Origin: Promethearchaeota archaeon
GTDB lineage: Archaea; Asgardarchaeota; Lokiarchaeia; Sigynarchaeales; SOKP01
DNA: 8,647 bases
Direction: 5' to 3'
NCBI GenBank assembly: GCA_030620005.1
Contig: JAUXAJ010000227.1
Location: forward strand, 1-8,647
The first letter of the stretch is position 1. Each line of letters opens with the position of its first letter. The translations under genes were made by a program, and so were the position numbers. Positions 3,259 through 8,647 of the stretch are shown piece after piece. Under the pieces are notes generated by a model. The model did no database searches and had not been told where the DNA came from. It worked only from the letters and a program-made list of their open reading frames with translations.

Positions 3259-6200
3259 TTACCAATATACTTCTTTTAAAGATTCATGGTACTCATTCAA
3301 AGATTTTACAACTAATGGTTGTTCTCTCACTTTTTCAATTGCATCGACTATAGCCTCGGCAAGCTGTAAATTGATAATTACGGGTATATTAAAATCGACA
3401 GCCATGCGGCGTATTAGATATTCATCGTGGATTATTTGGCGAAACTTTTCTTTGACGGTTATTGGAAGCGGGATGTTTATAACCATATCAATTCTTCCAT
3501 TTACCATGCATTCTCTTATATTTGGCTCCATTCCCTGATCACTCACCTTATATAACTTCACAGCAGGAATACCATTTTCTTTGAGTGCTTTTGCCGTGTG
3601 TTCAGTAGCAAAAATGGTAAATCCTAAATTTTTAAGTTTAGCCGCAATTGGGATAATATGTTTTTTTAATTCGCCCCCCCCTACTGAGATCAAGACGCTA
3701 CCTCCTTCGACTGGAATGTATTGTTCTGCAGCCTCTAATGCCTTCATCAGAGCATCAGGAAGATCTTCCCCAATAACAGCTACTTCTCCTGTTGAATTCA
3801 TTTCTACACCTAATATTGGATCTGCGTTATCAAGTCGCATGAAAGAAAACATTGGAGATTTAACCGCAACAAAATCCCCATAAGGTAAATTTAAAAGTCG
3901 TTCTGGTATTTTTTTCCCCATTATTACTTCCGCAGCTATTCTCATCAAATTTATCCCTCTTACCTTAGATACATAAGGCATTGATCTAGAAGATCTCAAA
4001 TTGCACTCGATTACATATACTTCTTCATTTTTAATTAGATATTGTATATTAAATGGTCCTTGGATTTTAAGTGCTAATGCAATTCTTGTAGTATAATCTT
4101 TAATATCGTTTTGTACCTTCCCGGAGATCGTTATTGGAGGAATAATCATGGTTGCATCTCCACTATGTACTCCTGCATTCTCTATATGTTCAACTATAGC
4201 TCCTATTAAAACATTATTCCTATCACAGACTCCATCACATTCAACTTCTCGAGAATCTGTGAAGAATTTTGTGATAACTACAGGATATTCTCTTGAGACT
4301 GCTGCCGCTAAATCAAGAGTATCTTTCAAAGTTTTCTCATCATACGAAACTCTCATTGCAGCACCACTTAATACATACGAAGGTCTAACAAGAACAGGAT
4401 ATCCAACTTTTTTAGCAAATTCAAAAGCCTCATCCGTAGTTGTTAATATAGCCCACTCAGGTTGCCTTATTTTAAGTTGATCAAGTAAGCTACTGAACTT
4501 GGCTCTATTTTCTGCCATATCCACACGGGAGCCATGTGTCCCTAAAATATTAATACCCGCTTTCCGGTAGAAATCGGAATACTTAACGAACTTTGCAGCA
4601 AGATTTTGGGCAATTTGTCCACCAGCATTTAATACGATACCTTGAGCTTTTTCTAGTTCCGCAATGTCAAGTACTCGTTCACCAGAAAGTTCCTCGAAAT
4701 ACAACCGATCGACAACATCATAATCCGTGGAGACGGTTTCAGGATTGTAATTTATCATGATAGCTTTATCTACATCCAATTTTTTAAGCCCCCACAAGCA
4801 ATTAACGCTTCCCCAATCGAATTCGCAACTTGAGCCAATGCGATACGTGCCGCAACCTAAAACAATTACCTTTTTTAAATTATCTCTTTCTTCTTGTTCG
4901 AAATCAATGTCGTGTTTATCTCCCCAGTAAGTAAGATATAAATATTGCCTTGTAGGAACAACCTGGCCTGCTAAGGTATCAATTTGTTTGACATGTGGAA
5001 CGATATTGTACCTTTTTCTTAACCTTCTTATCGTTGGAGTGTCAATTCCTAAGATACGGGCAATCTGTCCGTCCGAAAAACCATATCTCTTTGCTCTTAA
5101 CATCCAAAATTGCTTATCTTCATCAGAAGATTCAAGTAAATTTAATTTTTTAAGTTGTTCTTCCACATCAATTATATTTTTTAACTTATAAAGGAACCAC
5201 TTATCAACCCTCGATCTTTCATAAATTTCATCAATACTAATTTCTCTTTTTATTGCTTCTCCAATTCTTATGAATCTTAGATCAGTTGGATTTCTTAATT
5301 CATACTTTAATTCGTTTATATCCTCAATTGGCTTAAGATCATTTGCAACAAACCCCCTTAGCCCTATATCAAGCATGCGAATTGCTTTTTGACAAACCTC
5401 CTCGAAACTTCGTCCTATACTCATGCATTCTCCAACACCTTTCATTTGTGGTCCTATGCGCCTATCAACTTTTACAAATTTAGTCAGATCCCAGCGAGGA
5501 TACTTTAAAATCATGTAATCCGTTGCGGGTTCAAAGTTTGCAGTAGTTTTAAGTGTAATTTGATTTAATAATTCTGGTAAGGTGTAACCAACGGCAATTT
5601 TCGCAGCAATATACGCCAATGGATAACCAGTTGCTTTTGAAGCCAGAGCAGACGACCTAGATAATCTTGCATTGATCTCAATTGCTCTATGCTTTTTTGA
5701 AAAAGGATCAAGAGCCCATTGAATGTTACATTCCCCAACAACATCTACTCTTCTAGTTGCGCGTATGGATGCGGAGCGGAGCATTTGTAATTCCTCGTCA
5801 GATAAGGTTTGAGCTGGAGCCACAACAATGGAGTCTCCTGTATGGATCCCACAAGGGTCTAGGTTCTCCATGCTGCAATTAATAAAACAGTTGTCTTCTG
5901 CATCTCTTAGTATTTCAAATTCAATTTCTTTCCATCCCCACACGCTCTCTTCAATTAAAATTTGACTTATTCTTGATTGGGCCAAACCCCTTTTAGCTAG
6001 TCTTTCAAATTGTTCCCAATTGTGGATGAATGCAGAACCTAGACCACCTAAAACATACCCAACCCTCATCATTATAGGAAATCCAATTTCTTTTACAGCA
6101 GCAACGGCATCTTTATAATTATTTACAGCGACACTCTTGCATACAGGGCAATCTGCATCATTCATTGCTTTAACAAATAGATTTCTGTCCTCGGTTGCTT

Positions 6201-6570
6201 CAATAGCTTCAACGGTAGTACCACATACCCTAACATTATATTTATCCAGAATTCCTGCTTCGCTTAATTCAACCCCTACATTAAGGGCCGTTTGCCCTCC
6301 AAAAGCTAGACATATCCCATCTGGTCTCTCTTTTTTGATTACTTCCTCAACATATTTAACATTAATAGGAAGTAAATAAACCCTCGAGCTCATCTGGGGG
6401 TCTGTCTGTATCGTAGCAATATTTGGATTTATTAAAATAGTCTCAATTCCTTCCTCTTTTAATGCTTTTAATACTTGACTTCCTGAATAGTCAAACTCTC
6501 CTGCTTGACCGATCCTAACTGCACCTGATCCTAAAATGATTACTTTCTTTAATGATTTATCTAATGGCAC
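3259..6570 (-). CDS. carB: carbamoyl-phosphate synthase large subunit, copy 1 (CAD/CPS II type)
   Basis: CarB makes carbamoyl phosphate from ammonia, bicarbonate and two ATP, feeding pyrimidine and arginine synthesis in the cytosol. The 1103 residues (E. coli CarB 1073) show all the parts. The first synthetase half runs about 8-400, with GSGAVRIGQAGEFDYSGSQ (14-32), GIHTGDS (241-247) and metal-binding E298/N300 in EINARLSRSS. The oligomerisation domain is about 410-550. The second half is about 560-940, with VRPSYVLSGAA (728-738), AGVHSGDA (799-806) and E855/N857 in ECNLRSSRS. The C-terminal MGS-like allosteric domain is about 945-1085. Wording such as INPNIATIQTD, PRWDLTKF, VKQIDT, YLYLTYWG and NYNPETVSTDYD is closer to eukaryotic CAD and Bacteroidetes CarB than to E. 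coli. The start is GTG, 8 nt after a strong GGAGGTG (6579-6585) that overlaps the end of carA, so translation is probably coupled. No key residue is missing, so it should be active, with ammonia supplied as discussed under carA. Confidence 0.97.
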   Translation of the reverse strand: MPLDKSLKKVIILGSGAVRIGQAGEFDYSGSQVLKALKEEGIETILINPNIATIQTDPQMSSRVYLLPINVKYVEEVIKKERPDGICLAFGGQTALNVGVELSEAGILDKYNVRVCGTTVEAIEATEDRNLFVKAMNDADCPVCKSVAVNNYKDAVAAVKEIGFPIMMRVGYVLGGLGSAFIHNWEQFERLAKRGLAQSRISQILIEESVWGWKEIEFEILRDAEDNCFINCSMENLDPCGIHTGDSIVVAPAQTLSDEELQMLRSASIRATRRVDVVGECNIQWALDPFSKKHRAIEINARLSRSSALASKATGYPLAYIAAKIAVGYTLPELLNQITLKTTANFEPATDYMILKYPRWDLTKFVKVDRRIGPQMKGVGECMSIGRSFEEVCQKAIRMLDIGLRGFVANDLKPIEDINELKYELRNPTDLRFIRIGEAIKREISIDEIYERSRVDKWFLYKLKNIIDVEEQLKKLNLLESSDEDKQFWMLRAKRYGFSDGQIARILGIDTPTIRRLRKRYNIVPHVKQIDTLAGQVVPTRQYLYLTYWGDKHDIDFEQEERDNLKKVIVLGCGTYRIGSSCEFDWGSVNCLWGLKKLDVDKAIMINYNPETVSTDYDVVDRLYFEELSGERVLDIAELEKAQGIVLNAGGQIAQNLAAKFVKYSDFYRKAGINILGTHGSRVDMAENRAKFSSLLDQLKIRQPEWAILTTTDEAFEFAKKVGYPVLVRPSYVLSGAAMRVSYDEKTLKDTLDLAAAVSREYPVVITKFFTDSREVECDGVCDRNNVLIGAIVEHIENAGVHSGDATMIIPPITISGKVQNDIKDYTTRIALALKIQGPFNIQYLIKNEEVYVIECNLRSSRSMPYVSKVRGINLMRIAAEVIMGKKIPERLLNLPYGDFVAVKSPMFSFMRLDNADPILGVEMNSTGEVAVIGEDLPDALMKALEAAEQYIPVEGGSVLISVGGGELKKHIIPIAAKLKNLGFTIFATEHTAKALKENGIPAVKLYKVSDQGMEPNIRECMVNGRIDMVINIPLPITVKEKFRQIIHDEYLIRRMAVDFNIPVIINLQLAEAIVDAIEKVREQPLVVKSLNEYHESLKEVYW

Positions 6571-6575
6571 GCTTT

Positions 6576-7709
6576 CTACACCTCCAAAAGTTCAATAAAT
6601 TTATTGAATATTAGTTCTTTCATGTCTAATGCTCCAGGTGAGGCTTCTGGATTAAAAGCTACCGAAAATATTGGTTTACTCTCATGGATTATTCCTTCGT
6701 TTGTATTATCGTCTTTGTCATGGAATAATTGCTTAAAACCTTCTCTTTCTACATCCTTTAGACAATAAGCATGATTTTGAAAAGTAATAAAACAGTTTTC
6801 TTTTCCGCTCTCAACTGTTGTTCGACTGCCTCTATGTTCAGCGGTCAATTTATAGCAACTGGCTCCTGAAGCGATCCCAAGGATTAAATTGCCCATTCCA
6901 ATTCCCATTGTAGGAATCGAACTTTTAATTAAGTTTTTTGCTATTTCGATAGATTCAAGGTTGATATTCGGATTTCCAGGACCACTTGTGATTAAAACAC
7001 CATCTGGCTTCAATTCCATGATCTTATTATAAGAGTAATTGTAAGGAACTACATTTACTTCTATTTTATTGCTTAATAAAGTTCTTAAAATATTATTTTT
7101 AACACCTAAATCTAATATTACAGCAGAACCTTTTGGATCATCTAGCGTAATTTTTTTAACATGCTTAGTAGACACTGTATCTACGAGATCTTTATTAATT
7201 GGATCTTCAATACTTTGAACTTCTGCTTTTATTGAATCAATATCTGGTTTCTGTCCTTCCTCGAACACTTGAATTAAACCTAACTTGCTACCGCTTAGAA
7301 CTAATTCTTGGGTAATCATTCTAGTATCAATCCATTGGATACCAGGAATATTTTCTTCAATTAACCATTCGTCAAGAGTCCTAATGCTTTCATGATGACT
7401 AGGTTTTTTACAGTATTCATTTACAATCAAACCTTTTATTGTAATAGATTGTGATTCAAACTGTTTGAGAATTCCAAACTCATCCTTCACCTTATCTGGA
7501 ACTCCATAGTTGCCTATAGAAGGATATGTGAAGAGCACGATTTGATCTTTATAGGTTGGATCCGTAAGAATCTCTACATAGCCAGATCCGGGAATGGTTG
7601 AAAATGTTATTTCACCAGAAACTTTTTTAACAGCACCGAAACCTATTCCTTCAAGGCACGTTCCATCTTGAAACATTAAAATCGCAGGTTTTTCGTACTT
7701 ATATATCAT
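6576..7709 (-). CDS. carA: carbamoyl-phosphate synthase small subunit with inactivated glutaminase site
   Basis: CarA normally hydrolyses glutamine and channels ammonia to CarB. The 377 residues match the family in length. The N-terminal CPSase_sm domain is residues 1-150 (SGYVEILTDPTYKDQIVLFTYPSIGN region, 42-67), and a class I GATase domain is residues 195-375. The GATase site is altered. The family's GICLGHQ is G-I-G271-M-G-N274-L275, so nucleophile Cys is Gly, and the adjacent His and glutamine-binding Gln are lost. The catalytic His of HPEASPG is N353, while E355 remains. Other landmarks persist: TSGPGNP (241-247), QNH (311-313), EASPG (355-359). The frame is intact and carB follows after 5 nt, so this looks like a maintained pseudo-glutaminase, not decay. 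Inference: the complex uses free ammonia, and CarA serves structure or regulation. No Shine-Dalgarno precedes the ATG; a TATA-like CTAAATAC (minus strand, 7743-7750) would give a short leader of about 12 nt. Confidence 0.95.
   Translation of the reverse strand: MIYKYEKPAILMFQDGTCLEGIGFGAVKKVSGEITFSTIPGSGYVEILTDPTYKDQIVLFTYPSIGNYGVPDKVKDEFGILKQFESQSITIKGLIVNEYCKKPSHHESIRTLDEWLIEENIPGIQWIDTRMITQELVLSGSKLGLIQVFEEGQKPDIDSIKAEVQSIEDPINKDLVDTVSTKHVKKITLDDPKGSAVILDLGVKNNILRTLLSNKIEVNVVPYNYSYNKIMELKPDGVLITSGPGNPNINLESIEIAKNLIKSSIPTMGIGMGNLILGIASGASCYKLTAEHRGSRTTVESGKENCFITFQNHAYCLKDVEREGFKQLFHDKDDNTNEGIIHESKPIFSVAFNPEASPGALDMKELIFNKFIELLEV
6579..6585 (-). promoter_or_regulatory. strong ribosome-binding site deciding the GTG start of carB
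   Basis: GGAGGTG on the minus strand lies 8 nt before the GTG at 6568-6570 and within the last sense codons of carA (Leu-Leu-Glu-Val). It is the strongest Shine-Dalgarno in the window. It selects GTG over any later ATG and implies that ribosomes ending carA can restart on carB. Confidence 0.85.
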
Positions 7710-7756
7710 TTTGGGTAGATGTTATTTTTTTATTATCTCAATGTATTTAGAATTAA

Positions 7757-7886
7757 GTTATACTAATTTAATTCTTTTATTTAATATAATTATCATGGGA
7801 TAAATAAGAACAAGTTAATAAGAACACGTTATACTAATATAATTCTTTTATTTAATATAATTATCAAGGGATAAATAAGAACAAGT
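7757..7886. repeat. 59-bp near-perfect direct repeat in the carB-carA spacer
   Basis: Copy A is 7757-7815 and copy B 7828-7886, a 71-base period with only two mismatches (7768/7839 and 7796/7867). Each unit, read on the minus strand, contains a TATA-like TTAAATAA (7777-7784 and 7848-7855). The octamer TAAGAACA occurs once in each copy and a third time in the 12-base gap (7805, 7819, 7876). The nearer copy ends 47 bases before the carA ATG, so this may be a duplicated promoter or operator block. No five-A run (minus-strand U-tract) exists in 7710-7903, so read-through from the upstream carB copy is possible. Confidence 0.85.
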
Positions 7887-7903
7887 ATATAAATTTTTAA
7901 AGT

Positions 7904-8647
7904 TTACCAGTAGACCTCCTTTAAGCTCTCATGATATTCGTTCAAGGATTTTATGGATAACTTTTTTTTCCTAACTTTTTCGATAGCATCGACAATAGCC
8001 TCTGCTAGTTGCAAATTAATTATCACGGGTATGTTATAATCGACTGAGAGTCTTCTTATTTTATACTCGTCTTCCATGATTTGTCTAAACTTTTTCTCTG
8101 CCGTTGTTGGAAGCGGTATGTTAATTACTAGATCAATAGCACCATTTTGTAAACAGCTCATTATATTGGGCTCTTCACCAGACTCGTGAATTTTGTAAAG
8201 TCTCACAGCAAATAAACCATTTTCTATAAGCACTTTCGCAGTATCTTCGGTTGCGAAAATCTTAAATCCCAAATCTCTTAGCTTTTTGGCCAAAGGAATT
8301 ACTTTCTTTTTTAATTCCTCACCGCCTACTGAAATTAGAACATTGCCTCCGTTGATAGGAATGTTTTGTTCAGTGGCTTCAAGAGCTTTCATCAAGGCAT
8401 CAGAGAAGTCGTTCCCAATTGCGGCACACTCTCCCGTTGAGCTCATCTCCACTCCCAATATGGGGTCAGCTTTATCTAATCTCATGAAAGAGAACATTGG
8501 AGCCTTAACGGACACATAATCCCCATAGGGTAAATTCATTAACCTTTTTGGTATTTTTTTATCCATTATGACTTCGGCAGCTAAACGCATCAAGTTAATT
8601 CCTCGAGTCTTAGATACATAAGGCATGCTCCTACTTGAACGTAGATT
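7904..8647 (-). CDS. carB: carbamoyl-phosphate synthase large subunit, copy 2 (3' part only)
   Basis: The frame is open across the right edge (NLRSSRS precedes the internal Met at 8624-8626), so this is the C-terminal 247 residues of a second CarB and the rest lies outside the window. It covers the end of the second ATP-grasp core (NLRSSRSMPYVSK), the connecting region (KAPMFSFMRLDKADPILGVE), and the whole C-terminal MGS-like regulatory domain. The last 240 residues align with CarB copy 1 without a gap, 180 of 240 identical by my count. Identity is highest in the core (MPYVSK...GVEM) and the extreme C-terminus (IVDAIEKV, SLNEYHESLKEVYW). It is lowest in the middle of the MGS domain, around residues 1000-1020 of copy 1, where effectors bind in relatives. 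No stop or frameshift is seen, so the copy looks functional. It is upstream of carA on the same strand; whether its own small subunit lies further upstream cannot be seen. Confidence 0.95.
   Translation of the reverse strand, partial: NLRSSRSMPYVSKTRGINLMRLAAEVIMDKKIPKRLMNLPYGDYVSVKAPMFSFMRLDKADPILGVEMSSTGECAAIGNDFSDALMKALEATEQNIPINGGNVLISVGGEELKKKVIPLAKKLRDLGFKIFATEDTAKVLIENGLFAVRLYKIHESGEEPNIMSCLQNGAIDLVINIPLPTTAEKKFRQIMEDEYKIRRLSVDYNIPVIINLQLAEAIVDAIEKVRKKKLSIKSLNEYHESLKEVYW

Follow-up and report, generated by a model that had tools for sequence, protein, structure and literature searches.

A conserved Asgard paralogue of CarA without glutaminase catalytic residues, encoded with an intact CarB and predicted to serve an ammonia-dependent carbamoyl-phosphate synthetase

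Several Asgard archaea encode a second form of the small subunit of carbamoyl-phosphate synthetase (CPS), here called CarA2, in which Gly and Asn stand in place of the nucleophile Cys and the catalytic His of the glutaminase, and which is encoded just ahead of a large subunit, CarB2, with its named catalytic residues intact. Sequence comparisons make it probable that this pair is an old tandem carAB duplicate turned ammonia-dependent CPS, in which CarA2 would act as a structural or ammonia-entry subunit. The pair lies in a window of 8,647 nucleotides (the whole stretch of DNA analysed), which resembles a piece of an Asgard contig: its best named relatives are Lokiarchaeota or Promethearchaeota, a few being labelled Hod- or Hermodarchaeota. 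A viral origin was rejected, the viral contig scan having returned 11 pattern matches without any relative.

The carA2-carB2 locus and the residues of CarA2

Read along the minus strand, the locus consists of the tail of another carB, a spacer, carA2 and carB2. The carA2 gene (6576..7709, minus strand) encodes 377 amino acids from an ATG start without an internal stop, in agreement with the first-pass annotation, which had described it as full length and in frame. Its product matches both Pfam domains in the order PF00988-PF00117 and scores 334.5 bits against TIGR01368, above the NCBIfam cut-off of 307.35 for the CPS small subunit. A Shine-Dalgarno-like GGAGGTG (6579..6585, minus strand) at the 3' end of carA2 precedes the GTG start of carB2 (6570), which lies 5 nt past the carA2 stop. 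The carB2 gene (3259..6570, minus strand) encodes a CPS large subunit paralogue of 1103 amino acids, full length with both ATP-grasp halves and scoring 1383 bits against TIGR01369 (cut-off 1027).

The 3' end of the second carB (7904..8647, minus strand), cut by the window edge, probably belongs to a canonical copy, carB1. Its highest identity, 80.6%, is to three canonical Loki CarBs, whereas no CarB2 exceeds 76.9% and that of the window reaches 75.7%; in a C-terminal tree it was placed among canonical CarBs with weak support. This upstream tail, which the first-pass annotation had left unmentioned, shows carA2-carB2 to be one half of a tandem duplication, and a canonical carA in the window's own genome is likewise implied by the tail. 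The AT-rich spacer of 194 nt between carB1 and carA2 (7710..7903, minus strand) is mostly filled by two direct repeats of 65 nt each, 94% identical (7757-7821 and 7828-7892), which are possibly regulatory or a duplicated promoter. Elsewhere in the window, the plus strand carries an open reading frame for a 111-amino-acid cupin-domain protein (297-632; PF07883) and another of 514 amino acids with an acidic stretch (1365-2909), for which neither Pfam nor NCBIfam gave a match at E <= 0.001. A search for RNA elements gave 0 Rfam matches at the gathering threshold.

Residues were numbered by alignment to E. coli K-12 CarA, in which window positions 271 and 353 correspond to C269 and H353; locus sequences shorter than 331 amino acids were omitted, and three sequences ending before position 353 were assigned to neither group. 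The paralogue set comprised at least 105 protein clusters, taken from the best 120 of 6222 and the best 120 of 4390 matches, and 105 of them were compared with 30 canonical CarA clusters among the matches listed (hereafter the listed clusters).

The nucleophile elbow of the window protein reads GIGMGNL, with G271 (codon GGA, 6897..6899, minus strand) at the site of the nucleophile Cys (E. coli C269) and L275 (6885..6887, minus strand) at that of the glutamine-binding Gln (E. coli Q273). Further on, FNPEASPG places N353 (codon AAT, 6651..6653, minus strand) at the catalytic His (E. coli H353). Both motifs, on which the first-pass annotation had based its case, are confirmed in the sequence and in the E. 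coli alignment. Position 271 is Gly in 105/105 listed paralogue clusters and Cys in 30/30 listed canonical ones; position 353 is Asn in all 105 and His in all 30; and Gln at the Q273 position is found in 0/105 against 30/30. At the E. coli S47 position the window has Thr, and Ser is kept in only five of the 105 listed paralogue clusters, whereas Cys, His, Gln and Ser are all intact in the 30 listed canonical clusters. The acidic member of the triad remains, as Glu in 91 and Asp in 14 of the 105.

N274 (6888..6890, minus strand), which had been taken as a replacement of His in the elbow, is not a loss, because canonical Asgard CarAs with intact Cys, His and Gln read GICLGNQ and carry Asn there in 30/30 listed clusters; the listed paralogue clusters have N in 66, H in 35, S in 2 and T in 2 of 105. 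The true losses in carA2 are Cys, His and Gln, plus Ser at E. coli position 47. Judged by its residues, the product is a glutaminase-dead CarA homologue without the Cys-His-Glu triad, and we do not class it as a glutaminase.

Laboratory variants C269G and H353N of E. coli CarA exist, and PDB entry 1c30 is titled 'small subunit mutation C269S' (1a9x: 'caught in the act of glutamine hydrolysis'). In carA2, by comparison, both residues have been replaced naturally, across a deep clade and together with fixed changes in CarB. Both Cys-269 and His-353 are described as essential for glutamine hydrolysis by the E. coli enzyme (PMC6245113).

Conservation and distribution among Asgard genomes

The replacements at positions 271 and 353 stood up when relatives were compared, but their reading as an isolated odd gene did not: they are common to 105/105 listed clusters and mark a conserved Asgard paralogue family. 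In a CarA tree of 113 tips, some of them near-duplicates and CPS1 not among them, the 36 paralogues were separated by one bipartition with UFBoot 100. All organism names attached to listed paralogue clusters (14/104) are Asgard. Searching back from P0104, which scored lowest among the paralogues listed first, gave known paralogues, one new one (P0121) and canonical CarAs among the best 120 of 4390 matches.

Pairwise identity between listed paralogue clusters reaches down to 49.6% (median 65.3%), and 47 of 377 positions are invariant among the 105. Six of the 377 are invariant in the listed paralogues and missing from the 30 listed canonical clusters, namely Y62, Q134, G271, R296, D331 and N353. 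Since two of these six are the catalytic positions, G271 and N353, the new state of carA2 is maintained rather than drifting; the glutamine contacts, unlike G271 and N353, vary across the paralogue. carA2 is under purifying selection: against its two closest relatives, in genomes G001 and G002, the window gene gave dN/dS values of 0.13 and 0.14 (dS 0.70 and 0.95), and against G005 a higher value of 0.25 (dS 1.04), the remaining pairs being near saturation with dS of at least 1.6.

Searching the 227 genomes of the phylum with the paralogue profile (E <= 1e-40) gave a CarA match in 81; the other 146 had no match at this threshold, which may reflect true absence, divergence or incompleteness. Among the 81, the paralogue occurs in 11, canonical CarA in 77 and both in eight, and the CarA of G101 is a fragment without the catalytic sites. 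There are thus eight of 11 paralogue-bearing genomes with a second, canonical carA, such as the first-pass annotation had suggested looking for. Of 94 distinct CarA rows, the window included, 88 span both catalytic positions, and these divide into 76 with Cys/His, 12 with Gly/Asn and none mixed; two rows span neither position and four reach the Cys position alone. G141 and G152 each showed two canonical CarA copies (L080, L146, L084, L107), which may represent mixed bins or another duplication.

Three paralogue-bearing genomes had the paralogue only. In G010, a second carB tail lies at the contig edge, so its canonical carA has probably been cut off. The other two, G001 and G002, are the closest to the window and hold one CarA, the dead one, and one CarB in all; both are metagenome-assembled genomes (MAGs) whose completeness is not stated. 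Unless a canonical pair was missed through MAG incompleteness, these two genomes have no CPS other than the dead pair, which must then work with ammonia.

The order carA2 then carB2 was found in 11/11 loci and in the window. carA2 lies directly downstream of a canonical carA-carB in four loci (L003, L004, L008, L009), a second carB cut by the end lies upstream in L010 and the window, and the pair stands alone, away from the canonical one, in five (L001, L002, L005, L006, L007); L011 begins within carA2. No neighbour of carA2-carB2 is constant across these loci, and the neighbourhood names no pathway. In L006, hypF lies upstream and an AIRS-domain gene, which we take to be HypE-like, downstream; AmtB and PII genes lie near L008, a homologue of the ammonium transporter AmtB near L009 and glnA (glutamine synthetase) near L003. 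Each of these occurs near a single locus, and gene context was rejected as proof of a pathway. A conserved family of small proteins, c2 (about 82-108 amino acids; no Pfam match in the four members scanned), is encoded downstream of carB, canonical or paralogous (L001 14585-14830, L002 14764-15012, L003 14466-14792, L004 9099-9362, L010 5923-6210, L011 3932-4195). It was rejected as a dedicated partner of carA2-carB2, lying likewise downstream of canonical carB in L150, L153, L154, L156, L160 and L164, and tblastn found no member in the window at E <= 1.

The CarB2 partner

The intact carB partner of the first-pass annotation was borne out across the family: all 15 named catalytic residues are kept in 12/12 CarB2 copies, namely R129, R169, E215, H243, Q285, E299, N301, R303, R715, E761, H788, Q829, E841, N843 and R845. 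The tunnel-gate residues C232, A251 and A314 are intact as well. CarB2 differs at the positions of E. coli L210, H754 and L756, where canonical Asgard CarBs differ too; at the tunnel-region position of E. coli I352, it has T in 12/12 copies against L or I in canonical CarB.

Fixed differences between CarB1 and CarB2 were counted at sites conserved within both groups. A canonical carB was sought in 20 genomes beyond the 11 and CarB was obtained from 19; the near group comprised 20 CarB1 sequences, compared with 12 CarB2 (fragments from the window, G010 and G145 being excluded), with six distant canonical CarBs as the control group. At the threshold used there were 44 fixed differences, distributed as 31/282 sites in the carboxyphosphate domain, 8/77 in the oligomerisation domain, 5/239 in the carbamoyl-phosphate domain and 0/66 in the allosteric domain (carboxyphosphate versus carbamoyl-phosphate domain, Fisher p 4e-5). 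In the same domain order, the near and distant canonical CarBs differed at 2/210, 2/47, 4/156 and 3/39 sites, and a control split of the near set gave 0 in every domain. In E. coli, the small subunit is reported to contact the carboxyphosphate and oligomerisation domains, ammonia being delivered to the former (PMC6245113). The changes in CarB2 can accordingly be read as a putative co-adaptation to the altered CarA and to its ammonia supply.

The 3' half of carB also bears signs of gene conversion, the MGS distance there being 0.276 within the same genome against 0.313 across genomes. In G005, the C-terminal end of CarB2 (L005) groups with the CarB1 of G005 (L048) and G108 and the rest with CarB2, which likely reflects gene conversion between the copies. 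Since conversion would lower the counts of fixed differences in this half, we do not take the domain asymmetry as wholly adaptive. As a test of vertical inheritance, CarB1 and CarB2 distances were correlated over eight genomes for the whole gene (r 0.58, permutation fraction 0.009), a correlation that was not clear for the N domain (0.064) or the C half (0.23) alone. Trees of the carboxyphosphate and oligomerisation domains placed CarB2 outside all Loki CarB1, and those of the C-terminal part placed it, weakly, nested among Loki CarB1; support labels in the domain trees were possibly shifted by rerooting and are not counted as evidence.

These data bear on the best placed of the alternatives, in which CarA2 is a regulatory pseudo-subunit that tunes or competes, and CarB2 draws its ammonia from another amidotransferase or, within mixed complexes, from canonical CarA1. 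The presence of both CarAs in eight of 11 genomes agrees with it, and tandem genes of shared ancestry would permit subunits to mix. We nevertheless regard it as unlikely: G001 and G002, with the caveat on their completeness, show the dead CarA and one CarB alone, the pair stands apart from the canonical one in five loci, and the fixed CarB2 changes in the domains that contact CarA suggest a matched pair.

Predicted function and comparison with known systems

An AlphaFold2 model of the window CarA2, built from a 24-row alignment, had a mean pLDDT of 84.2 and a pTM of 0.86, with low confidence at residues 40-43, 290-295 and 300-309. In a Foldseek search with this model, entries of E. coli CarA ranked first to third (1a9x_B, TM 0.88) and human CPS1 fourth (5dot_B, TM 0.86), and the CarA fold is thus predicted to have been kept. 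By sequence, the best PDB match to CarA2 was human CPS1, with 256.7 bits against 163.5 for E. coli, the GIGMGNLI of the window corresponding to GISTGNLI in CPS1.

Compared with canonical Asgard and prokaryotic CarAB (CPS II type, a glutamine-dependent heterodimer), carA2-carB2 has the same separate CarA and CarB, the same domains and the same CarB catalytic residues, and the two pairs are tandem neighbours in several genomes. It differs in that CarA2 lacks the Cys, the His and the Gln that binds glutamine, in most cases the Ser as well, and has six invariants of its own among the matches listed, and CarB2 has its 44 fixed differences, including T at E. coli position 352. Vertebrate CPS I and the Asgard pair both keep a glutaminase-dead, CarA-like part with the synthetase, the Cys and the Gln being lost in each. 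The loss of the glutaminase Cys that characterizes CPS I was found, as Gly, in 105/105 listed clusters; a single fused chain was not, carA2 and carB2 being separate genes 5 nt apart, and carA2-carB2 may therefore work like CPS I without being classed as one. Human CPS1 is one fused, N-acetylglutamate-requiring chain that keeps the His, whereas the Asgard pair consists of two proteins and has lost it; since the His is kept by CPS1 in the alignment, the Asgard route differs. CPS1 is described as unable to use glutamine, with Ser294 in place of the Cys, and its Gln318 as replacing E. coli G293 and blocking the old tunnel; a path along the surface is given as a possible entry for ammonia (PMC4655335). 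At the place of G293, 102/105 listed paralogue clusters have Gly (the window has Ser), and the old tunnel is therefore not blocked in the CPS1 fashion. A one-residue deletion beside this tunnel glycine was discarded as a candidate feature, vanishing in the 105-cluster alignment. The paralogue clade, with CPS1 outside that tree, suggests an origin independent of vertebrate CPS I.

In a fish CPS III, a preference for ammonia through loss of a glutamine-binding residue has been argued from sequence (PMC7657897), which offers a parallel. Glutaminase-free archaeal routes to carbamoyl phosphate have been described, namely the ArcE/ArcB route of Thermococcales and anabolic enzymes that resemble carbamate kinase (PMC13260591, PMC6022934). 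Their genes differ from carA2-carB2, and carbamate kinase is given as structurally unrelated to CPS (PMC13260591).

We propose that a Loki-type archaeal carAB operon was duplicated in tandem to give carA2-carB2, and that CarB2 would use bicarbonate and NH3 in the ordinary synthesis with two ATP. Glutamine would no longer be bound or hydrolysed by CarA2, which would have been kept, because CarB needs it structurally, as a partner capping the carboxyphosphate domain and letting in or gating free ammonia. The ammonia might enter by way of the emptied glutaminase pocket or along a path on the surface to reach the carboxyphosphate in CarB2, later steps being ordinary, and the glutamine-dependent route would be left to canonical carA1-carB1 wherever present. 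Given that Gly and Asn are shared by the relatives, that the CarB2 partner is intact and that the fold is kept, it is very unlikely that CarA2 hydrolyses glutamine by the usual thioester route, and our best inference is that carA2-carB2 uses ammonia. We infer in the same way a CarA2-CarB2 complex, ammonia as its substrate, the entry route and a physiology tied to ammonia-rich anoxic settings.

The patchy occurrence of the paralogue, in 11/81 CarA-bearing genomes, counts against the ammonia-CPS explanation, as do the inconstant gene neighbourhood, the higher dN/dS of the window gene against G005 and the gene conversion that partly confounds the domain asymmetry in CarB. Furthermore, the ammonia reaction of the E. 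coli enzyme is reported to need very high, likely unphysiological concentrations (PMC6245113), so that loss of the glutaminase alone would not be enough for a good ammonia enzyme. As possible consumers of carbamoyl phosphate, which need not come from carAB2 because eight of 11 genomes also hold a canonical CarA, OTC was above the cut-off in 8/11 paralogue genomes (with weaker transcarbamylase matches in 11/11) and HypF in 9/11 (a match in 10).

A reverse or catabolic role, in which carbamoyl phosphate from arginine or ureido compounds would yield ATP and carbamate and the missing glutaminase would spare glutamine from waste, is improbable. Carbamate kinase was found in three of the 11 genomes and in none of the other eight, and in these three it lies within about 2 kb of OTC on one contig (G001:C14, G002:C198, G011:C96), an arrangement that suggests arginine or citrulline fermentation and makes carbamoyl phosphate from arginine breakdown plausible there. 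G001 and G002 are also the genomes that show the dead CPS pair alone. These three genomes, however, already own carbamate kinase for that step, and the named residues of the bicarbonate-phosphorylating half, unneeded for one-ATP recovery, are intact in CarB2.

Slightly less probable still is a mainly allosteric CarA2 whose former glutaminase pocket has become a sensor of a new ligand such as ammonium or an amino acid. The six invariants of the 105/105 listed clusters (G271, N353, Y62, Q134, R296 and D331) speak for it, but a Gly at the strained nucleophile elbow can become fixed purely for structural reasons, and the glutamine contacts vary among the paralogues. Decay of a duplicate, or a frameshift, sequencing or assembly artefact, would account for lost catalytic residues and a patchy distribution and is refuted by the full-length open frames, the dN/dS of 0.13-0.14, the intact named residues of CarB2 and the identical pair of replacements in 105 listed clusters, down to 49.6% pairwise identity, and in 11 separately assembled genomes.

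With ammonia-dependent synthesis thus the preferred reading, we favour on balance a fuller account in which an ammonia-specific CPS would have evolved independently in Asgard archaea by tandem duplication, with CarA2 as a non-hydrolytic entry or gating subunit and matched changes in CarB2, and would run beside the glutamine-dependent copy or, in genomes like G001 and G002, replace it. Searches of open-licence literature on Asgard CPS, ammonia-dependent prokaryotic CPS and Cys-less CarA gave no title or abstract on such a paralogue among the matches listed, and we know of no earlier natural counterpart of CPS I in prokaryotes that is built from two subunits. Vertebrates already provide an ammonia-dependent CPS whose glutaminase moiety is dead; what appears to be new is the archaeal form with its two subunits and tandem duplication. 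If the proposal is true, the annotation of some carA2 genes as 'glutamine-hydrolyzing' would need correction, and carA2-carB2 would offer an independent case of glutaminase loss that can be set against the canonical sisters which many of these genomes also encode. Asgard archaea, the archaeal group closest to eukaryotes, would then also be seen to use free ammonia directly for carbamoyl phosphate.
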